This document shows positions 23,472 through 33,946 of a stretch of DNA of 43,789 bases, piece after piece; within the stretch, counting starts at the first letter, position 1, and the number at the start of each line of letters is the position of its first letter. The translations under genes and the position numbers were made by a program. Source of the stretch: Clostridia bacterium. Lineage in GTDB: Bacteria; Bacillota; Clostridia; Christensenellales; Borkfalkiaceae. Below the pieces are notes generated by a model. The model had not been told where the DNA came from and searched no databases. It was given only the letters and a program-made list of their open reading frames with translations. The stretch spans positions 1-43,789 of the forward strand of contig JAFTQB010000021.1 in NCBI GenBank assembly GCA_017462985.1, written 5' to 3'.

Positions 23472-24329
23472 GTGAAAGAAATTGCCGAAAAAATGATGAA
23501 GTCGTACGAAAAGAACCAAACGGCGGGCGTGGAACGGGGGCTGATTTTGCCCGATCGCGAAGAGGTGATCTCGGCGTTGAAGGATTTGCGAAAGCTGATG
23601 TTTCCCGCGTTTTTTGCAGCGGAGGAAGCGAGGGGGGATCTGTTGCATTTTGCGGAGTCTACCCTTAATACCGTCTATTATAAAATGAAAAAACAGATCG
23701 AACGCGCGTATCTTTTTGATGGCAAAAGTGCGGAGAGCGCGGAAATGACGATAAAAAGGTTTATAGAGGCGCTTCCGTGCGTTCGAGATACTCTTTTTAC
23801 CGATCTGCAAGCGACTTATGAAGGCGACCCTGCGGCGAAGAGCAAAGAGGAGATCGTGTTTTCCTATCCGGGATTTTACGCCATTTTCGTTTATCGTATA
23901 GCGCATATCCTCTATTTAGAGGGCGTGCCGTTCATTCCGCGTATGATGACGGAATACGCGCACGGCAAGACGGGCATCGATATCCATCCCGGCGCGGTGA
24001 TCGGGGATTATTTCTTTATCGATCACGGCACGGGTGTCGTGATCGGGGAAACGACGGTGATCGGAAACCGCGTGAAAATTTACCAAATGGTTACGCTCGG
24101 CGCGCTTTCGCCCAGAAAAGGGCAAAGCCTGGCGGGCGTGAAACGCCACCCCACCGTGGAGGACGACGTAACCGTATATTCGGGTGCGTCCATTTTGGGC
24201 GGCGAAACGGTGATCGGCAAAGGTGCGATGATCGGCGGCAACTGTTTTTTGACGCAAAGCGTGGGCGCAGGCGTGCGCGTGAGTGCGAAACCGCCTGAAC
24301 TGACCATCAAAGAGGGTAAAAAGGAGTAG
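23472..24329 (+). CDS. cysE: Serine O-acetyltransferase, EpsC type
   Basis: Left-handed beta-helix acyltransferase making O-acetylserine from serine and acetyl-CoA. At 285 aa it has the longer N-terminal helical domain of the EpsC-type enzymes. Hexapeptide repeats run from about residue 168 (DIHPGAVIGDYFFIDHGTGVVIGE) to 270, with the catalytic His in IDHGTG. The start is GTG at 23472, 9 nt after AAGGAG. The C-terminus ends in a short charged tail, unlike the CysK-binding Ile tail of E. coli CysE. Confidence 0.92.
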   Translation: MKEIAEKMMKSYEKNQTAGVERGLILPDREEVISALKDLRKLMFPAFFAAEEARGDLLHFAESTLNTVYYKMKKQIERAYLFDGKSAESAEMTIKRFIEALPCVRDTLFTDLQATYEGDPAAKSKEEIVFSYPGFYAIFVYRIAHILYLEGVPFIPRMMTEYAHGKTGIDIHPGAVIGDYFFIDHGTGVVIGETTVIGNRVKIYQMVTLGALSPRKGQSLAGVKRHPTVEDDVTVYSGASILGGETVIGKGAMIGGNCFLTQSVGAGVRVSAKPPELTIKEGKKE

Positions 24330-24332
24330 ACG

Positions 24333-25340
24333 ATGAGTAAGGTCGTTGTGCCGAAAGGCTACCGCGCGGCTCTGGGATTATACGATACGCAAACGGCGAT
24401 CGGGATCTTAAAACGGACGTTTGAAGAGAAGCTCTGCCTCGCGCTCAATTTAAAGAGGGTTTCCGCGCCGTTGTTCGTTGATCCAACGACGGGTTTAAAC
24501 GACGATTTGAGCGGCGTAGAACGCGCGGTGCGGTTTGATATTAAGGAAACGGGAAAGGACGCCGTTGTGGTGCATTCTTTGGCGAAATGGAAGCGTATGG
24601 CGCTTGCCGTGTACGGTTTTTCGGCGGGCGAGGGGCTGTATACGGATATGAACGCCATTCGCCGCGATGAGGAAATGGATAATCTTCACTCGGTGTATAC
24701 CGATCAATGGGATTGGGAGAAGATCATCACGGCGGAAACGCGCAACGAGGAATATTTACGCGTGGTGGTGCGCGCGATCGTGGGCGCGATTTGCGATACG
24801 CTCGACGTATTAAAATGCCGCTATCCGCAGCTTCCCGTTACGCTTTGCAGGGAAGTTACGTTTATTTCCGCGCAGGAATTAGAGGATAGATACCCTCGTC
24901 TTTCGGCGAAAGAGCGCGAACAGCGCATCACGAAAGAAAAGGGAACGGTTTTCATTGAGGGCATCGGGGATAAACTGAAAAGTGGCGTTCCGCACGACTT
25001 GCGCGCGCCCGACTACGACGATTGGTCGCTGAACGGCGATATTTTATTTTGGCACGAACCGCTTGGGGTAGCGCTGGAAATTTCTTCGATGGGAATACGC
25101 GTGAACGAACAGTCGATGGAAGAACAGCTTGAAAAAGCAGGGGCGACGGAACGCAAACAATTGCCTTTCCACAAAGCGCTTTTAAACGGAGAACTGCCGT
25201 TGACGATGGGCGGCGGAATCGGACAATCTCGGCTTTCGATGTTGCTTTTGGGCAAGGCGCATATCGGTGAAGTGCAGGTGTCGCTTTGGGATGAGGAAAC
25301 GCGGCGCGTTTGTGCGGAAAACGGCGTAGTGCTGTTGTGA
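24333..25340 (+). CDS. asnA: Aspartate-ammonia ligase
   Basis: Ammonia-dependent asparagine synthetase, 335 aa, class II aminoacyl-tRNA synthetase-like fold. The family start (KGYRAALGLYDTQTAIGILKRTFE), RVSAPLFVDPTTGLNDDLSGVERAVRFD, HSLAKWKRMAL, the motif TDQWDWEK and the closing TMGGGIGQSRLSMLLLGKAHIGEVQVS are all present. It starts 3 nt after cysE and is the last gene before the second XRE module. Confidence 0.95.
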   Translation: MSKVVVPKGYRAALGLYDTQTAIGILKRTFEEKLCLALNLKRVSAPLFVDPTTGLNDDLSGVERAVRFDIKETGKDAVVVHSLAKWKRMALAVYGFSAGEGLYTDMNAIRRDEEMDNLHSVYTDQWDWEKIITAETRNEEYLRVVVRAIVGAICDTLDVLKCRYPQLPVTLCREVTFISAQELEDRYPRLSAKEREQRITKEKGTVFIEGIGDKLKSGVPHDLRAPDYDDWSLNGDILFWHEPLGVALEISSMGIRVNEQSMEEQLEKAGATERKQLPFHKALLNGELPLTMGGGIGQSRLSMLLLGKAHIGEVQVSLWDEETRRVCAENGVVLL

Positions 25341-26474: not shown

Positions 26475-27848
26475 ATGAAAAAAGAAATACCTTATAAAAT
26501 TTATTTGAACGAAGCACAGCTTCCCAAGCAATGGTTAAATTTGCGCGCGTTTATGAAGCAGAAGCCCGCGCCGCTTTTAAATCCTCAAACGCAACAGCCG
26601 ATGACGGTGCAAGAGCTTTCCACAGTATTTTGCGACGAGCTTGCCGCGCAGGAGTTGGACGATAGCACGCCGTATATCGATATTCCCACGGAAGTGAGGG
26701 ATTTTTATAAAATGTACCGCCCCGCGCCGCTCATTCGCGCATATTGTTTGGAGCGCGCGCTTGATACGCCCGCGAAAATTTATTATAAATTCGAAGGCAA
26801 TAACACGAGCGGCTCGCACAAGCTCAATTCCGCGATTGCGCAAGCGTATTATGCGAAAGAACAGGGCTTGAAAGGCGTAACGACGGAAACGGGCGCAGGG
26901 CAATGGGGAACGGCGCTTTCGATGGCGTGTTCGTACTTTGGCTTGGATTGCAAAGTGTTTATGGTCAAGGTTTCCTACGAGCAAAAGCCGTTCCGCCGCG
27001 AAGTGATGCGCACTTACGGCGCTTCCGTTACTCCCTCGCCATCTACTTTTACGAGCGTTGGCAGAAAGATTTTAGAAGAATTCCCCGGTACGACGGGAAG
27101 CCTCGGCTGTGCGATTTCCGAAGCGGTGGAGGTTGCCGTGGGGTCGGAGGGATACCGTTACGTTTTGGGGAGCGTGCTCAATCAGGTATTATTGCATCAA
27201 TCGGTGATCGGTTTGGAAACGAAAACCGCGCTTGACGAGTACGGCGTAAAGGCGGATATTATCATCGGTTGTGCGGGCGGCGGCTCGAACCTTGGCGGCT
27301 TGATTGCGCCGTTTATGGCGGAAAAGCTGCAAGGGAAAGCAGATTATCGGTTTATCGCCGTAGAGCCTGCCTCTTGCCCTAGCTTAACGCGCGGGAAATA
27401 TGCGTACGATTATTGCGATACGGGAAAGGTTTGCCCGCTTTCGAAAATGTATACGCTCGGTTCGGGCTTTATCCCGTCGGCAAATCATGCGGGCGGGCTG
27501 AGATACCACGGTATGACTTCGACCTTGTCGGAGCTGTACGCGCAAGGGTTGATGGAAGCGCGGTCGGTGGAGCAGACCGCCGTGTTCGAAGCGGCGGAAC
27601 GGTTTGCGCGCGTGGAGGGGATTTTGCCCGCGCCTGAATCCTCGCACGCGATCAAAGTGGCGATCGACGAGGCGTTGGAATGTAAACGCACGGGCGAGGA
27701 AAAGACGATTGTATTCGGCTTGACGGGTACGGGGTACTTTGATATGATGTCGTACGAAAAATTCCACGACGGAAAAATGACCGATTATATCCCCACCGAC
27801 GAGGAGATCGCGGCGAGTCTTTCGAAATTGCCGAAAATCGGAAAGTAA
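26475..27848 (+). CDS. Tryptophan synthase beta-like protein, TrpB2 type
   Basis: PLP enzyme joining indole and serine to tryptophan. At 457 aa it is longer than TrpB1 (about 400) and has the TrpB2 look: extended N-terminus (RPAPLIRAYCLERAL), KFEGNNTSGSHKLNSA with the PLP lysine, TETGAGQWG, and GGGSNLGG for the phosphate. No trpA lies anywhere in the window, so it probably works alone on free indole (salvage), which is the usual proposal for TrpB2. AGGAGAA precedes the ATG. Sole structural gene behind the Trp T-box. Confidence 0.92.
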   Translation: MKKEIPYKIYLNEAQLPKQWLNLRAFMKQKPAPLLNPQTQQPMTVQELSTVFCDELAAQELDDSTPYIDIPTEVRDFYKMYRPAPLIRAYCLERALDTPAKIYYKFEGNNTSGSHKLNSAIAQAYYAKEQGLKGVTTETGAGQWGTALSMACSYFGLDCKVFMVKVSYEQKPFRREVMRTYGASVTPSPSTFTSVGRKILEEFPGTTGSLGCAISEAVEVAVGSEGYRYVLGSVLNQVLLHQSVIGLETKTALDEYGVKADIIIGCAGGGSNLGGLIAPFMAEKLQGKADYRFIAVEPASCPSLTRGKYAYDYCDTGKVCPLSKMYTLGSGFIPSANHAGGLRYHGMTSTLSELYAQGLMEARSVEQTAVFEAAERFARVEGILPAPESSHAIKVAIDEALECKRTGEEKTIVFGLTGTGYFDMMSYEKFHDGKMTDYIPTDEEIAASLSKLPKIGK

Positions 27849-28113: not shown

Positions 28114-28214
28114 CAAAAAAGCGAGGTGAAAGGGGGATTTTTTTGCCGAAAAAGCGGTTTTGCAAAAAAAAATAAAAAAATTTAAAAAATTTTCAAAAAA
28201 CCCCCTCAAAACGC

Positions 28215-28243
28215 TTTACAAAACTAAAGTGATGAAGTATAAT
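28215..28243 (+). promoter_or_regulatory. Promoter of the amino acid ABC transporter
   Basis: TTTACA (28215-28220), 17-bp spacer, TATAAT (28238-28243). The 130-nt leader holds two hairpins: GCGGT-GAAA-ACCGC (28286-28299, GNRA-type loop) and AACGCTTT/AAAGCGTT (28315-28338). Neither is followed by a T run, so they look like stability or translational elements, not a terminator. Confidence 0.7.
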
Positions 28244-28381
28244 AAGTGTACTTTAACAAAGTGAAGCGATAAAGTAAAAAGAAAAGCGGTGAAAACCGCG
28301 TAAAATTTTCCTCAAACGCTTTATCACGGCAAAGCGTTAAAGCAAAAAAAGAAAAATAATTTTTTAAGGAGATTTTTAATT

Positions 28382-29248
28382 ATGAAAAAGGTAGCAAAAG
28401 TGTTGGGTTTGGTTTTGGCGGCGTCTATGGTAACGGCAGCGGCAGTTGCTTGTAACCAAGGGGACGAACTTCAAATCGGAAAAGAATTCGTAGCGGCTTC
28501 GAGTCAGCTTGACGCGCTTACGAAGTTGGATAAGGGCGAAGCGGACGTAGCCGTGATCGACTCGGTAATGGCGGGATACTACACCGCGACGGGCGATTAT
28601 GCGGATAAGATGCAAATGGTCGACGGGCTTGTTCTTGCCGAAGAAAGCTATGGGATCGCTGCGAAGAAAGGGAACCAAGCGTTTATGTCTAAGATCAACG
28701 AAGCCTTGATCGCATTGAGAACGACGGAGTATGCAACGATCACCGAAGAATATAATTTGACGGCTTCCGCGGCGTTGACGGAAAGCACGACGAATCCTTA
28801 CGCGGACGCGACGGATAATAGCTGGGAAGAAGTGAAATCGAGCGGTACGATCGTGATCGGTTATACGGTATTCGCGCCGATCGCTTATGAAGAAGCGGGC
28901 GCATTGACCGGCTATGATATCGAGCTTGCAAGAGCAGTCGTCGCTTATTTGAATACGACGTATACTTTGAATTTGGAAGTGGATTTCTTGCTGATCGATT
29001 GGAACACGAAAGAAGCGAAGTTGGAGGACGGAACGATCGACCTCGTATGGAACGGTATGACGATCACGCCCGACAGAGAAGAAGGTATGTGTATTTCCGT
29101 GCCTTATCTTTACAATAAGCAAGTAGCCGTGATTTTGAAAACCGACGCGTCCAAATACACTTCGAAAGACAGCATGAAAGACGCGATCATGACGGCGGAA
29201 AGCGGTTCTGCCGGTGAAACGGTGATCGTAGGCGAACAAGAAGAATAA
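28382..29248 (+). CDS. Amino acid ABC transporter binding lipoprotein, permuted lobe order
   Basis: Lipoprotein signal (residues 1-23, C24 as lipid attachment) and a type II periplasmic-binding-protein fold of the SBP_bac_3 family, 288 aa. The order is unusual. Residues 30-127 look like the second lobe and C-terminal end of a normal member (LDALTKLDKGEADVAVID, then ESYGIAAKKG and a final helix ending TITEEYNL). After a Ser/Thr/Asn-rich linker (128-148), residues 152-288 look like the normal N-terminal lobe (SGTIVIGYTVFAPIAYE, GALTGYDIELARAV, DGTIDLVWNGMTITPDREEG) and stop just past the first hinge (ESGSAGETVIV). All parts are present once, so this fits a circular permutation. Ligand residues D60, D179 and R232 are retained. 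Expected to feed the permease and ATPase that follow. Confidence 0.85.
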   Translation: MKKVAKVLGLVLAASMVTAAAVACNQGDELQIGKEFVAASSQLDALTKLDKGEADVAVIDSVMAGYYTATGDYADKMQMVDGLVLAEESYGIAAKKGNQAFMSKINEALIALRTTEYATITEEYNLTASAALTESTTNPYADATDNSWEEVKSSGTIVIGYTVFAPIAYEEAGALTGYDIELARAVVAYLNTTYTLNLEVDFLLIDWNTKEAKLEDGTIDLVWNGMTITPDREEGMCISVPYLYNKQVAVILKTDASKYTSKDSMKDAIMTAESGSAGETVIVGEQEE

Positions 29249-29265: not shown

Positions 29266-29952
29266 ATGGAACATTTTTCTGATATTATTATAGAGCTATT
29301 CGAGGGTTTCGGCAACACGGTCTTGTTGTTCGCCGCGACCCTCGTTGTCGCGCTTCCGTTAGGATTATTGTTGGCGTTTGGTTCAATGTCGAAATTTAAG
29401 CCGCTGAAATGGTTGGTGAACGTGCTCGTTTGGGTAATTCGCGGTACGCCGCTGATGTTGCAGATATTGCTCGTGAGTTTTATTCCCCAATACGTTTTCA
29501 GCGTGCCGACCAAACAGCTTGCGGCGGCGCTCAATATTTCGATCAATACGACGATGTTTTTATTCGTTGCGATTGCGTTTATCATCAATTACGCGTGCTA
29601 TTTTTCGGAAATTTACCGCGCGGGGATCGAAGCGATCCCGCAAGGACAATACGAAGCGGGCAAGGTATTGGGTTTGACAAAAAATCAAGTTTTTGGTAAA
29701 ATCATATTGATGCAGGTCGTTCGGCGTATTCTGCCGCCGATGAGCAACGAGATTATTACGCTTGTCAAAGATACTTCGCTTGCGCAAATCCTTGGCGTGA
29801 TCGATCTTTTGAACGCGGCGAAGCACGCGGTCAATCATTACGTGATCCTGTCGCCGTTTTTATATGCGGCTATTTTCTATCTGATCTTTAACGGGATTTT
29901 AACTTTGTTGCTCGGTTGGATAGAAAAGAAGTTGTCGTTTTATCAGGTGTGA
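29266..29952 (+). CDS. Polar amino acid ABC transporter permease
   Basis: HisM/GlnP-type membrane subunit, 228 aa, with about five membrane segments. The family N-terminus (FEGFGNTVLLFAATLVVALPLGLLLAF), VIRGTPLMLQILL, AIAFIINYACYFSEIYRAGIEAIPQGQ and the EAA loop contacting the ATPase (YEAGKVLGLTKNQVFGKIIL) are clear. A single permease gene implies a homodimer. It starts 17 nt after the binding-protein gene and lies 4 nt before the ATPase gene. Confidence 0.94.
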   Translation: MEHFSDIIIELFEGFGNTVLLFAATLVVALPLGLLLAFGSMSKFKPLKWLVNVLVWVIRGTPLMLQILLVSFIPQYVFSVPTKQLAAALNISINTTMFLFVAIAFIINYACYFSEIYRAGIEAIPQGQYEAGKVLGLTKNQVFGKIILMQVVRRILPPMSNEIITLVKDTSLAQILGVIDLLNAAKHAVNHYVILSPFLYAAIFYLIFNGILTLLLGWIEKKLSFYQV

Positions 29953-29956
29953 GATT

Positions 29957-30751
29957 ATGGCTTTTTTTGAGATTGAAAATTTAACGAAAAGCTTTGGCGC
30001 GGTGCAGGTGTTAAAAGGCGTTTCCGTATCTTTGGAAGAAGGGCAGGTGCTTGCGATCATCGGTTCTTCGGGCGGCGGGAAAACCACTTTGATGCGGTGT
30101 ATCAACTTTTTGGAAACGCCCGACGGCGGTACGATCACCGTGGACGGGGAACAGGTGTTTCCTGCGGAAAAAAGCAATAAGGAACGGGGAAAAAGCCGTT
30201 TGACTTTTGGAATGGTCTTTCAGGCGTTCCATTTGTTCCCGCAGTATACGGCGCTGAAAAACGTAACGCTTGCGATGGACGTGCAATCGGAGAACGAATT
30301 GAGGGAACGGGGCGTGAAGTTTTTTGCGCGCAAGGCGCTCATGAAAGAAAAGCGCGCGCAAAACGAGGAAACGGCAAAAGCGCTTTTGACTCGCGTGGGG
30401 CTGGAAGAGAAAATGCAAAACTATCCCTATCAGCTTTCGGGCGGGCAGCAGCAGCGTGTGGCGATCGCGCGGGCGCTTGCTTTGTCGCCGAAAATTTTGT
30501 GCTTCGACGAGCCGACGAGCGCGCTCGATCCCGAGCTGACGGGCGAGGTTTTAAAGGTTATTAAAGACTTGAGAAACGAAGGAAGAACGATGATCATTGT
30601 TACGCACGAGATGGAATTTGCGCGCAACGTTGCGGATAAGGTAATCTTTATTGCGGACGGCGAGATCGCGGAAGAGGGTACGCCCGAGGAAGTATTCGGG
30701 AATCCGCAAAACGAAAAAACCAAGCATTTCTTGGCAAAGGAAGAGGTGTAA
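29957..30751 (+). CDS. Polar amino acid ABC transporter ATPase
   Basis: GlnQ/HisP-type ATPase of 264 aa. Walker A GSSGGGKTT at 36-44, Q-loop FGMVFQAFHLFPQYTAL, signature LSGGQQQRVAIARAL from 160, Walker B ILCFDEPTSALD at 180-191, H-loop VTHEM. It is about 20 residues longer than usual; the extra is a charged stretch near 111-138 between the Q-loop and the signature, on the face of the helical domain. Last gene of the transporter proper. Confidence 0.95.
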   Translation: MAFFEIENLTKSFGAVQVLKGVSVSLEEGQVLAIIGSSGGGKTTLMRCINFLETPDGGTITVDGEQVFPAEKSNKERGKSRLTFGMVFQAFHLFPQYTALKNVTLAMDVQSENELRERGVKFFARKALMKEKRAQNEETAKALLTRVGLEEKMQNYPYQLSGGQQQRVAIARALALSPKILCFDEPTSALDPELTGEVLKVIKDLRNEGRTMIIVTHEMEFARNVADKVIFIADGEIAEEGTPEEVFGNPQNEKTKHFLAKEEV

Positions 30752-30753
30752 AA

Positions 30754-31041
30754 ATGGGAAAGGATAAGGAAAAGGACGAAATGATGCGATCGACGCTGTA
30801 TAAAGCGCTGTTGCTTTGCGAAAACGAGCGGGAAATGGCGGAACTGCTCAGCGATCTTTGCACCTATAAGGAAATCGACCAAATGGCGCAACGGATCGCG
30901 GCGGCAAAGCTTTTGAAAGAGGGCAAAACGTACGCGGAAATTATCGAGGATACGGAAATTTCCTCTGCGACGCTCTCGCGTGTGTCGCGGTGTTTGCAGC
31001 GCGGCAGCGGCGGCTACGAAAGGATTGTGGAAAAAATTTAA
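30754..31041 (+). CDS. YerC/YecD-family TrpR-like DNA-binding protein
   Basis: All-helical 95-aa protein of the TrpR superfamily as seen in Bacillus YerC. Residues 25-52 resemble TrpR helices (LLSDLCTYKEIDQMAQRIAAAKLL); the helix-turn-helix is about 58-82 (TYAEIIEDTEISSATLSRVSRCL). It starts 2 nt after the transporter ATPase stop and is probably co-transcribed with it. It may regulate the transporter or, given the family, respond to tryptophan and act on the neighbouring trpB2; the sequence does not decide. Confidence 0.88.
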   Translation: MGKDKEKDEMMRSTLYKALLLCENEREMAELLSDLCTYKEIDQMAQRIAAAKLLKEGKTYAEIIEDTEISSATLSRVSRCLQRGSGGYERIVEKI

Positions 31042-31103: not shown

Positions 31104-31880
31104 ATGAAAGTTGTAGTAAAAGTGGGTACTTCCACGCTCGCTCATTCGACGGGGCGATTAAATATCCGTCGGGCAAGAAAATTATGCGAAACGCTTAGCG
31201 ATTTGAAAAACGCGGGGCATGAGATCATTTTGGTGTCTTCGGGCGCGATCGGTATGGGCGTGGGGAAACTCGCGCTTTCAGAGCGACCCAAAGATATTCC
31301 CACCAAACAAGCCGCGGCGGCAGTGGGACAATGCGAGCTGATGTATACCTATGATAAGCTGTTTTCCGAATGCGGGCATACGGTGGCGCAGATCTTGCTG
31401 ACGGGCGCGGACTTTTCGCACGAGGACCGATTGCAAAATTTTAAAAATACCGCGTCGCGGCTCATCGAGCTTGGGGCGTTGCCCATCGTCAACGAAAACG
31501 ATACCATCGCGACGGACGAGATCAGCGTGGGGGATAACGATACCCTTTCCGCGCTTGTGGCGGTGAATACGGGGGCGGACTTGCTCGTGATTTTATCGGA
31601 TATCGACGGACTGTATACCGCCGATCCCAAAAAGGACGAGAATGCGGAGCTGATCGCGAGAGTAGAGGAGCTTACGCCCGAAATTTTGGCGCTCGGCGGC
31701 GGCGCGGGGTCGTCGCTGGGAACGGGCGGAATGAAAACGAAGCTTTCGGCGGCGGCGACGTGTATGGAACGCGGTACGGATATGGTGATCGCGAGCGGCG
31801 AAGAGCCTGAAATTTTGTATCAGATCCTTGAAAACAAGGGGGCAGGTACGAGATTTGTGGCAAAGAAGGTGAAAAAATGA
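31104..31880 (+). CDS. proB: Glutamate 5-kinase
   Basis: Amino acid kinase family enzyme phosphorylating glutamate for proline synthesis. KVGTSTL (7-13), LVSSGAIGMGVGKL, PIVNENDTIATDEI and VGDNDTLSALVA are the family motifs. At 258 aa it lacks the C-terminal PUA domain of the 367-aa E. coli enzyme; PUA-less forms are known. The last four bases, ATGA, overlap the start of proA, so the two are translationally coupled. Confidence 0.95.
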   Translation: MKVVVKVGTSTLAHSTGRLNIRRARKLCETLSDLKNAGHEIILVSSGAIGMGVGKLALSERPKDIPTKQAAAAVGQCELMYTYDKLFSECGHTVAQILLTGADFSHEDRLQNFKNTASRLIELGALPIVNENDTIATDEISVGDNDTLSALVAVNTGADLLVILSDIDGLYTADPKKDENAELIARVEELTPEILALGGGAGSSLGTGGMKTKLSAAATCMERGTDMVIASGEEPEILYQILENKGAGTRFVAKKVKK

Positions 31881-33136
31881 GCGAAGTGAGAGAGATGCTC
31901 GTCGCGGCGAAAACGGCGGCGAGAAAGTTTATGAATACGAGCGGCGAAAAGCGAAACGAAGCGCTGTTTGCCATTGCCGAAGCATTGGAAGATCAAGCGG
32001 AAGCGATTTTGGCGGCGAACGATTTGGATATTGAGGCGGCGAAAGAGAAGATCGGGGAAGTGATGATCGATCGGTTGCGCTTGACGAAAGAGCGAATCGC
32101 GGGAATTGCCAAGGGAGTGCGCGAGGTGGCGGCGCTGCCCGATCCTTTGGCTCGGAATTTGCAAACGATCGTGCGCCCGAACGGGTTGAAGATCGAAAAG
32201 ATCGCCGTGCCGCTTGGCGTGGTGGCGATCATTTACGAAAGCCGCCCCAACGTAACGGCGGACGCGGCGGCGCTTTGTATTAAAAGCGGCAACGTTTGCG
32301 TGCTTCGCGGCGGTTCGAACGCTTACCGCACGAGCGCGAAGATCGTGGGAATTATGAAAGTCGCGCTTGTAAAAGTTGGTTTGGACGAAAATCTTGTGAA
32401 TATGCCTACGGATACCTCGCGGCAAAGCGCGACGGAGCTGATGACGGCGGTGGGCTTGGTGGACGTGCTCATTCCCCGCGGCGGCGCGGGTTTGATACGC
32501 TCTTGCGTAGAGAACGCGAAAGTTCCGTGCATCGAAACGGGCACGGGGATCTGCCATTTGTATATCGACGAGAGCGCGGAGCTTGATACGGCGCTGAATT
32601 TGGTGGAAAACGCAAAGACGAGCAGACCTTCGGTATGTAACGCCGAGGAAGTGTGCTTGGTGCATCGATCGATCGCGAACGCGTACCTGCCCGCCTTAAA
32701 AGCGAGATTGGTGGAAAATCGTATCGCGGACGGAAAGCCGCCCGTGGAACTTCGGCTTTGCGAAAGGGCGCAAAAAATCGTCGACGGGGTGGCGGCGACG
32801 GAAACGGACTTTGATACGGAGTTTCTCGATTATATTTTAGCGGTGAAGATTGTGGATAGCGTGCAGGAAGCGATCGAGCATATTGCCGCCCATTCGACGG
32901 GGCACAGCGACGGGATCGTAACGCGCTCCGAGGAAAACGCGCGCGCGTTCGTGGCGGGCGTAGACAGCGCGGCGGTGTACGTGAACGCTTCCACGCGGTT
33001 TACCGACGGGGGCGAATTTGGAAAGGGTTGCGAGATCGGCATATCTACGCAAAAAATGCACGCGAGAGGTCCGATGGGATTGGAAGAGCTGACCACTTAT
33101 AAATACGTGGTGTACGGCGACGGGCAAATTCGATAG
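31877..33136 (+). CDS. proA: Glutamate-5-semialdehyde dehydrogenase
   Basis: NADPH-dependent reduction of glutamyl-5-phosphate, 419 aa, ALDH-like fold. IYESRPNVTADAAALCIKSGN and LRGGSNAYRT are the family stretches; the catalytic cysteine is expected in SRPSVCNAEE; FTDGGEFGKGCEIGISTQKMHARGPM closes the active site. It overlaps proB by 4 bases and is followed by proC at 16 nt, so all three proline steps are in one unit. Confidence 0.96.
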   Translation: MSEVREMLVAAKTAARKFMNTSGEKRNEALFAIAEALEDQAEAILAANDLDIEAAKEKIGEVMIDRLRLTKERIAGIAKGVREVAALPDPLARNLQTIVRPNGLKIEKIAVPLGVVAIIYESRPNVTADAAALCIKSGNVCVLRGGSNAYRTSAKIVGIMKVALVKVGLDENLVNMPTDTSRQSATELMTAVGLVDVLIPRGGAGLIRSCVENAKVPCIETGTGICHLYIDESAELDTALNLVENAKTSRPSVCNAEEVCLVHRSIANAYLPALKARLVENRIADGKPPVELRLCERAQKIVDGVAATETDFDTEFLDYILAVKIVDSVQEAIEHIAAHSTGHSDGIVTRSEENARAFVAGVDSAAVYVNASTRFTDGGEFGKGCEIGISTQKMHARGPMGLEELTTYKYVVYGDGQIR

Positions 33137-33151
33137 TAAGGAGTTGGAAAT

Positions 33152-33946
33152 ATGTACCGTTTTGGATTTATCGGTTGCGGGAATATGGGCGGAGCGTTGG
33201 TACGCTCCGTATGCAAAAGCGTGGCGGCTGGCGAGATTGCCGTATGCGATTACAGCGTGGAAAAAACGCAGGCGCTGCAAAAGGAACTGGGCGTGCAGAC
33301 GGTCGGCGCGGAGGAGTTGGCGAAAAATTCCCGATTCGTCGTGCTGGGCGTGAAGCCGCAAAATATGCAAGAAACGCTGGCGGGGATCTCCGCGGCGTTA
33401 AAGGAAAATCCCAAATTGACGCTGATCACGATGGCGGCGGGGCTTTCGACGGCGGCGATCCTCTCTTACGCGGGTATCGTCGCGCCGATCATTCGTATTA
33501 TGCCCAATACCCCTTGCGCGCTTGGGGAAGGCGTGGTGTTGTATGCGAGTAACGGCGCGAGCGCGGAAGCGTTACGCGAGTTCCGTTCGGCGTTTAAGAA
33601 AGCGGGAAAACTCTTCCCGATGAGCGAGGAAACGTTGGACGCGGCGGGCGCGCTTTCGGGCTGCGGCCCCGCGTTCGCCTATATGTTCGCGGAAGCGCTC
33701 GCAAACGGCGCGGTGGAATGCGGCGTGGAAAAATCGCAGGCAGTGGAGCTTGCGGCGCAAACGCTGCTCGGCGCGGCGAAGATGATACAGCAATACGGCG
33801 ACCCCGTCGACTTGAAAATCAAGGTTTGCAGCCCCGGCGGCACCACATTGGCGGGCGTTGCCGCGTTGGAGCAGGGGAAATTTGACGAAGTAACCGCTTC
33901 GGCTGTAACGGCGGCTTATGCGCGAACGCTGGAATTGAAACGCTGA
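33152..33946 (+). CDS. proC: Pyrroline-5-carboxylate reductase
   Basis: Last step to proline, 264 aa. The N-terminal Rossmann motif is FIGCGNMGGAL (4-14); RIMPNTPCALGEG and the C-terminal signature around SPGGTTLAGV complete the family. AAGGAG precedes the ATG. No typical terminator follows, only an AT-rich 10-bp hairpin at 33962-33983. Confidence 0.95.
   Translation: MYRFGFIGCGNMGGALVRSVCKSVAAGEIAVCDYSVEKTQALQKELGVQTVGAEELAKNSRFVVLGVKPQNMQETLAGISAALKENPKLTLITMAAGLSTAAILSYAGIVAPIIRIMPNTPCALGEGVVLYASNGASAEALREFRSAFKKAGKLFPMSEETLDAAGALSGCGPAFAYMFAEALANGAVECGVEKSQAVELAAQTLLGAAKMIQQYGDPVDLKIKVCSPGGTTLAGVAALEQGKFDEVTASAVTAAYARTLELKR

Follow-up and report, generated by a model that had tools for sequence, protein, structure and literature searches.

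As far as is known, natural circular permutation is usually inferred between distant protein families, and its route and tempo have mostly been guesswork. The permutations of the DNA methyltransferases and of saposin/swaposin, for instance, are old splits between subfamilies. In both cases the same domain occurs in different circular orders that are explained by duplication, and the available text gives duplication and fission with fusion as the two main models of permutation, with the DNA methyltransferases as the case with documented intermediates (PMC3320104).

A related system has been described in Treponema pallidum, where Tp0684 (MglB-2) is a circularly permuted type I glucose-binding lipoprotein for which the name Type Ic has been proposed (PMC4990184). 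According to the part of that study that is available, Tp0684 has relatives in treponemes as well as in Gram-positives, of which many are gut commensals, and tethering is raised by its authors as a possible reason for the permutation. In the same available part the protein has one permuted topology, in which the first three strands of the N-lobe lie at the C-terminus and a fourth hinge crossing is present (PMC4990184).

In the window (the whole stretch of 43,789 nucleotides analysed), the gene for the solute-binding protein P0001 very probably encodes a working, lipid-anchored, circularly permuted amino-acid binder, one of a group in which four permuted orders have recurred by way of surface loops and the ends have been moved again, with duplication as the likeliest route. 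Like Tp0684, as far as the available text describes it, P0001 is permuted and probably lipid-anchored, serves an ABC importer and has kin among gut Gram-positives (PMC4990184); unlike the type I, sugar-binding Tp0684, the permuted proteins studied here belong to the type II family SBP_bac_3 (PF00497), show four orders with repeated origins, and include one switch within a genus. P0001 is also not Tp0684-like by similarity, as in NCBIfam and the PDB it matches SBP_bac_3-like amino-acid proteins along with sensors and enzymes that share their fold, and no type I sugar family is listed. In contrast to the old splits of methyltransferases and swaposin, the switch took place within one genus, in a secreted lipoprotein that needs a signal peptide at its new start. 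An earlier note on this DNA knew of no permutation described in SBP_bac_3, and none was found among the papers listed, as judged from titles and the opening parts of abstracts, a body in which subscription papers mostly lie outside the scope; two candidate papers (PMC2912341 and PMC7683729) had no bearing on the question in their available text. As far as found, the permuted order in SBP_bac_3, the four orders and the within-genus switch are new, whereas a permuted binding protein as such is known.

A binding lipoprotein in swapped order

The gene is an open frame with an ATG start that encodes 288 amino acids (Table 1). Its sole Pfam match is PF00497, which covers one stretch (residues 160-264, profile positions 4-102 of 132) at 82.4 bits against a gathering score of 26.4. 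When P0001 was compared in its real order with the PDB by phmmer, 3hv1 was matched in two swapped pieces, residues 145-279 aligning with chain positions 11-139 (71.5 bits) and residues 35-112 with positions 157-233 (17.5 bits). The earlier note had predicted that a search with the halves exchanged would give one full-length hit; this search was run against the PDB rather than with Pfam, whose model has 132 positions with the lobe-1 part already covering 4-102, and P0001 rewritten in native order gave one continuous match to 3hv1 (query 5-235 to chain 12-233, 231 residues, 95 bits, whole-sequence E 4e-26). In addition, a doubled profile was made from ten proteins of the same order as P0001, written twice in tandem, and on it P0001, itself one of the ten rows, runs as a single contiguous lap of 251 positions from P32 to P282, in agreement with the claim that nothing is duplicated or missing; relatives outside the ten rows show the same lap behaviour. 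The chain of P0001 thus does not run from lobe 1 through lobe 2 to the C-terminal helices, as native members do; P0001 is a permuted relative of SBP_bac_3 with what is here called order A, and the permutation claimed for this frame is borne out by the swapped PDB match, by homologs of the same order and by the doubled profile. Among the matches shown for orders A, B and C, those that run across the old C- and N-terminus are only to chains with two tandem domains (BvgS, 4q0c, for orders A and B, and in part GlnP, 6h30, for order C).

Table 1. Features of the binding-protein gene, its upstream region and its operon in the window
Feature	Position	Strand	Basis
Palindrome CTTTA-N6-TAAAG and ACTTTAACAAAGT, upstream of the binding-protein gene	28214-28229 and 28250-28262		
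Candidate promoter TTTACA-17-TATAAT, upstream of the binding-protein gene	28215..28243	+	consensus scan, 11/12 matches
P0001, order-A SBP_bac_3-type (type II) solute-binding lipoprotein, circularly permuted	28382..29248	+	Pfam, PDB, doubled profile
Residues 1-24: signal peptide, with C24 as the probable lipidated cysteine	28382..28453	+	by inspection
Residues 30-127: remainder of lobe 2, with the second hinge strand and what are the C-terminal helices in a normal member	28469..28762	+	3hv1 match, doubled-profile lap
Residues 128-148: linker from old C-terminus to old mature N-terminus	28763..28825	+	linker comparison
Residues 149-253: lobe 1 as far as the first hinge strand	28826..29140	+	PF00497 on 160-264; 3hv1
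Residues 254-288: first lobe-2 piece (ends after ESGSAGETVI), short tail, new C-terminus	29141..29245	+	doubled profile, linker comparison, swapped match
Single amino-acid ABC permease (BPD_transp_1; HEQRo_perm_3TM)	29266..29952	+	Pfam, NCBIfam
ABC ATPase; best NCBIfam models TcyN, GlnQ and EhuA, all under cut-off	29957..30751	+	Pfam, NCBIfam
YerC/YecD family TrpR-related regulator, directly after the ATPase	30754..31041	+	TIGR02531, 79.2 bits against a cut-off of 42.2

Once its halves are swapped, P0001 resembles the SBP_bac_3 proteins 3hv1, 4ohn, AncQR and GlnH over the whole domain, and it shares with the amino-acid binders of this family a probable lipoprotein signal, an operon with permease and ATPase, the residue D60 and the WNG motif. 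It differs from the canonical family in its chain order and, by the known fold of the family, in the placement of its lipid anchor on lobe 2. The lobe limits and secondary structure given for its segments likewise follow the known fold. Read in this way, the earlier lobe assignment holds for the swapped order of the two parts, but the cut does not lie at the lobe boundary, since residues of about 254-282, which follow the first hinge strand, already belong to lobe 2; by the alignment and this fold both chain ends are in lobe 2, which is the split lobe. P0001 should fold as an ordinary two-lobed Venus flytrap with its termini and anchor in lobe 2. The linker of residues 128-148 had been taken for a newly made bridge, which is true in part; in its second half, ATDNSWEEVKSSG, it is similar to the start of mature native-order proteins (for example ADNSKDWDNIQAKG of L022) and so is not purely new, and the linker as a whole looks like an old C-terminal tail joined to an old N-terminus.

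By inspection, the N-terminus of P0001 has a hydrophobic stretch up to AVAC24, in which the A at -3 is slightly unusual; LAAC stands there in relatives such as L003. A loose regular expression finds a lipobox-like motif in 104 of the 108 permuted relatives and in 60 of the 71 native ones. The lipid anchor presumably sits on lobe 1 in native proteins and in order C, and on lobe 2 in orders A, B and D. The homologs, the swapped-sequence match and purifying selection on the permuted genes support the view that through a natural permutation the anchor has come to sit on lobe 2 instead of lobe 1. Docking on the permease might change with it, as the earlier note proposed.

P0001 keeps D60, G225, T227 and R232, which we take to be ligand contacts. 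D60, D179 and R232 had been named as conserved ligand residues, and this holds nearly throughout for D60 (D in 106/108 permuted and 71/71 native proteins), whereas R232 is missing from many relatives (R in only 81/108 permuted and 45/71 native); the position of D179 is D or E in all 179, and we know of no proof that it touches the ligand. Across the same 179 sequences W223 and N224 are kept in 172, G225 in 174, Q247 in 175 and N245 in 178. The ligand of P0001 is probably an amino acid, to judge by these family resemblances. In the window's genome (77% complete) just one further SBP_bac_3 gene was found, the distant relative L001, which is in native order by inspection.

Four permuted orders and their repeated origins in Clostridia

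ORFs of the collected loci were matched to the doubled profile, on which a native protein runs from about P143 round to P130 and permuted proteins start and end elsewhere. Classes were set by the last position, as native (N, P112-134), A (P277 to P34, the order of P0001), B (P64-72), C (P169-172) and D (P248-256). Of 180 distinct ORFs (at least 200 aa, E <=1e-10), 179 fell into the native class or one of the four permuted orders, with one lap each; the remaining one is the two-lap protein L193. Native proteins are recovered by identical steps, and the doubled profile therefore does not create permutation artificially. Removal of near-duplicates left 71 native proteins and 107 permuted ones, of which 46 have order A, 21 B, 28 C and 12 D. 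L001 and a second ORF of L013 had been set aside ahead of counts or trees; the latter (313 aa, 28 bits, called B) was judged spurious.

The four narrow cut zones sit at or beside loops of native relatives that tolerate insertions and deletions. Among the 71 native proteins, stretches in which at least 20% carry indels relative to the template are P162-163, 171-173, 191-198, 254-257, 282-32, 34-36, 74-77, 80-84, 99-101 and 114-115. The cut zones of A, C and D coincide with such stretches, and the gap of B, whose members end at P64-72 and start at about P72-85, spans 74-84; no cuts were found at P162-163, 191-198 or 99-101 in this sample. The linkers of the permuted proteins fall into several unlike families, as expected from several founding events.

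The presence of same-order homologs elsewhere in Clostridia, which the earlier note had suggested searching for, has been confirmed. In a search of genome contigs, L003, L004 and L005, from roe deer, water deer and sheep gut assemblies, have order A over nearly the whole query (74%, 72% and 61% identity in the best segment), and in a search of the family (398 genomes) 14 genomes besides the window gave full-length same-order matches at 51-74% identity, with G373 in addition at 38%. A wider genome survey was made with a doubled profile of six diverse laps from permuted proteins only (alignment A2), which may favour permuted best hits in genomes with both kinds, since all its rows are permuted. 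In the taxonomic order of the window, 98 of 200 genomes were matched at E <=1e-35 (window included; G000, G501 and G479 among them contributed rows to the profile), and by best row 14 of them were A (the window being one), 14 were C, 7 B, 3 D, one two-lap and 57 native; a permuted best hit was thus seen in 38 of the 98, with the best rows of G532 and G416, which lie outside the class limits, read as native from their start positions and not counted as permuted. In the class, 321 of 391 genomes were matched at 1e-20, and the matches listed include at least 20 permuted genomes other than the window (four A, eleven B, five D; 16 checked by ORF) and no order C outside the window's taxonomic order. 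In the phylum, 216 of 299 genomes were matched at 1e-30, and the window and G1183 (D) are the only permuted ones among the matches listed. Within the window's genus, 22 of 57 genomes were matched at 1e-20 (A 7, C 2, native 13).

The four permuted orders arose repeatedly in Clostridia. A tree of 112 un-permuted homologs needs 17 order changes, and a tree of 173 sequences at least 23 (22 without two long rows), both trees carrying long-branch and composition warnings and the larger one having 64 of 170 inner branches open and weak deep branches. Its starred branches force at least four changes for A, four for B, four for C and three for D; kept out of it were L193 and, from tandem arrays, five different long upstream copies that make up six ORF entries. 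With AU groups that here and below were chosen after the trees had been seen, a single origin was rejected for B (15 rows, p 4e-55), C (22 rows, p 2.6e-4) and D (10 rows, p 7.6e-4), while with 4 D rows only there was no rejection for D (p 0.49). As an independent marker, the permease tree (149 rows) has 26 order changes.

A change of order is also seen within the window's own genus, where in two species L020 (G036) and L041 (G365) have order C in the same operon, and order A is found in the relatives nearest to them, including the window. The linker type is shared, and L020 and L041 sit inside five nested starred branches with A rows in a tree of binding protein and permease together (33 rows, 461 columns). 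Grouping the seven A rows without L020 and L041 was rejected (AU, p 0.007), as was joining L020 and L041 to L021, the other C protein of the clade (AU, p 1.4e-4). It follows from this nesting and both rejections that an already permuted protein was permuted again, and that within this clade order C has at least two origins. In the joint tree B forms one branch (91/99, not starred), and L017 (B) groups with the other B rows there and in the permease tree; in the tree of the binding protein only, L017 is paired with L021 (C) at 96, starred. One or two origins of B are therefore possible in the window's clade. A microhomology, ELIG, at the A-to-C junction is not claimed, as the same letters occur at that loop in other relatives.

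Possible routes to the permuted orders

It is likely that the position of the ends of this binding protein is an evolvable trait in gut Clostridia, the operon's binding protein having been re-cut often at four loops, with the anchor shifting between lobes and faces, and at least once, within a genus, in a gene that was already permuted. In the proposed route, the mature domain would first have been duplicated in tandem and in frame, and one complete lap would have been retained at every stage. A deletion from the 5' side as far as a tolerant loop, combined with a stop in the second copy at that loop, would then yield a new order; in P0001 the old lobe-1 termini would be bridged by the linker of residues 128-148 and the new termini, with the lipid anchor, would lie in lobe 2. 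In the window's clade the ends of an already permuted protein were moved again, to B and to C. Tandem duplication fits the linker, as its second half resembles the native mature N-terminus and its first half the native C-terminal tail.

Duplication is further supported by tandem binding-protein genes and by the two-lap protein L193. In L095, L096 and L011 two or three binding-protein genes stand in a row in one operon, the upstream copies being divergent, order-A-like frames of 323-348 aa, with a native-order copy also in L096. L193 (G425:C4; 801 aa) has two profile matches, of 50.9 and 13.9 bits, and is fused to a permease; it is read, partly by inspection, as a lipoprotein-like signal followed by lobe 2, lobe 1, lobe 2, lobe 1 and a permease-like domain. 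GlnP-type permeases combine binding domains with a permease in this way. By inspection L193 resembles those known by title (4kpt, 4la9, 6h30) in having tandem binding domains and a permease, and is unlike them in that its binding laps are in permuted phase. No free half-trimmed two-lap intermediate was seen, the sole two-lap protein being this permease fusion with weak scores, and so the trimming step is one that we infer.

Several other explanations were weighed. That misassembly or a decayed gene is the source of the permuted order has a negligible chance of being right: L003, L004 and L005 all come from metagenome-assembled genomes, as such an explanation would have it, but 107 distinct permuted genes are known, some on contigs of 150 kb to 1.3 Mb, and their intact frames, lipobox-like motifs and low dN/dS refute it in practice. 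The permuted genes are under purifying selection, with dN/dS of 0.05-0.21 in nine of ten close pairs, the computable ones (orders A, B and C), calculated on frames that run from stop to stop and include a few pre-start codons; in the tenth, the only order-D pair, synonymous sites are saturated (dN 0.22). It is also improbable that permutations were few and that the patchy distribution mostly reflects horizontal exchange of binding-protein genes or operons. Close genes across families (L010 of f1 and L049 of f6; L015 of f1 and L060 of f24) indicate that transfer may occur, but in trees of their own sequence and of the permease alike the genus's two order-C genes fall with order-A genes, and are therefore rearranged A relatives rather than imported C genes. 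Exchange is thus already hard to hold for the within-genus switch, and the rejection of single origins of B, C and D was obtained on the protein's own tree, independent of species relations.

Fission, with the two resulting genes later fused the other way round, is an unlikely source of the permuted orders that deserves more weight than exchange; with fusion it is one of two main models in the available text of PMC3320104, and the lack of a free two-lap intermediate among the proteins found would suit it. Against this, no adjacent half-genes were noticed in passing among the matches listed, the linkers resemble an old C-terminal tail joined to an old mature N-terminus, and a two-lap protein, L193, exists. 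A pair of half-genes in G086 was set aside as support for fission, both halves lying at contig ends. Still less credible is a domain-swapped dimer, in which a second chain would complete each lobe pair and a change of order would be neutral in the monomer; TmArgBP is a published domain-swapped type II binding protein, according to the available text (PMC4022495), but several orders with different linkers make one shared dimer arrangement less likely.

The position of the anchor may hardly matter, given a flexible tether and a symmetric permease, and this would explain a drifting order. Adaptation to tethering, as raised for Tp0684 in the available text (PMC4990184), would by analogy be an alternative. 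If the position of the ends is such a repeatedly changing trait, recurrent circular permutation could here, as far as is known for the first time in a protein family, be traced at species-level resolution, and the cut zones would form a natural map of the loops able to carry the termini of a type II binding protein. Since the switch is recent enough for close comparison, wider genome sampling in a single genus can tell duplication from fission. These proteins also indicate that the lobe which carries the anchor is not fixed, which bears on how binding proteins meet permeases, and they offer natural permutation sites for binding proteins, which serve as biosensor scaffolds. Permuted binders are also easily under-annotated, because family models see only a part of them, as Pfam does here.

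Operon, neighbourhood and candidate regulation

The binding-protein gene of the window shares an operon with the permease and ATPase genes. The permease gene comes directly next in 100 of 107 permuted and 68 of 71 native loci, and an ATPase gene follows it in 89 of 107 and 60 of 71, the flanks being short. In this transporter, the binder anchored through C24 would catch an amino acid and pass it to a permease dimer made from one gene.

A YerC/YecD gene is also present in six of seven clade relatives with enough downstream sequence (L003, L004, L005, L197, L198 and L199; orders A and C). Larger pieces around L020 and L041, and the genome of L021, all of order C, contain this gene as do the order-A loci L003, L004 and L005; none turned up around the order-B gene of G089 (L200). 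The palindrome CTTTA-N6-TAAAG is possibly an operator with the YerC/YecD protein as its regulator. It lies within 200 nt upstream (160 for L041) of 13 of the 18 binding-protein genes checked, in orders A, B and C (the window, L007, L009, L010, L011, L012, L014, L015, L017, L021, L037, L038 and L040), and in L007 the promoter spacer is taken up by it; the two order-C genes in the window's genus have no copy upstream, and genome-wide it shows no excess, with 7 sites against 5 for a control pattern. For ACTTTAACAAAGT in the window, 0.06 occurrences are expected at one mismatch. A scan of 3.3 kb counted 10 promoter-like sites, the candidate promoter among them, where shuffled sequence gave 3.8.

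A gene for a TrpB-like PLP enzyme lies at 26475-27848 in the window, and such genes are also found near the binding protein in L050, L055, L058, L067, L087 and L184, all in the window's taxonomic order (L184 is from the same genome as L050, and L087 has native order). These neighbours hint at an aromatic or indole-related ligand. Further amino-acid genes surround the transporter (23472-25340 and 31104-33946), namely asnA (TIGR00669) and proB (TIGR01027) and, by inspection, serine acetyltransferase-like, proA-like and proC-like genes.
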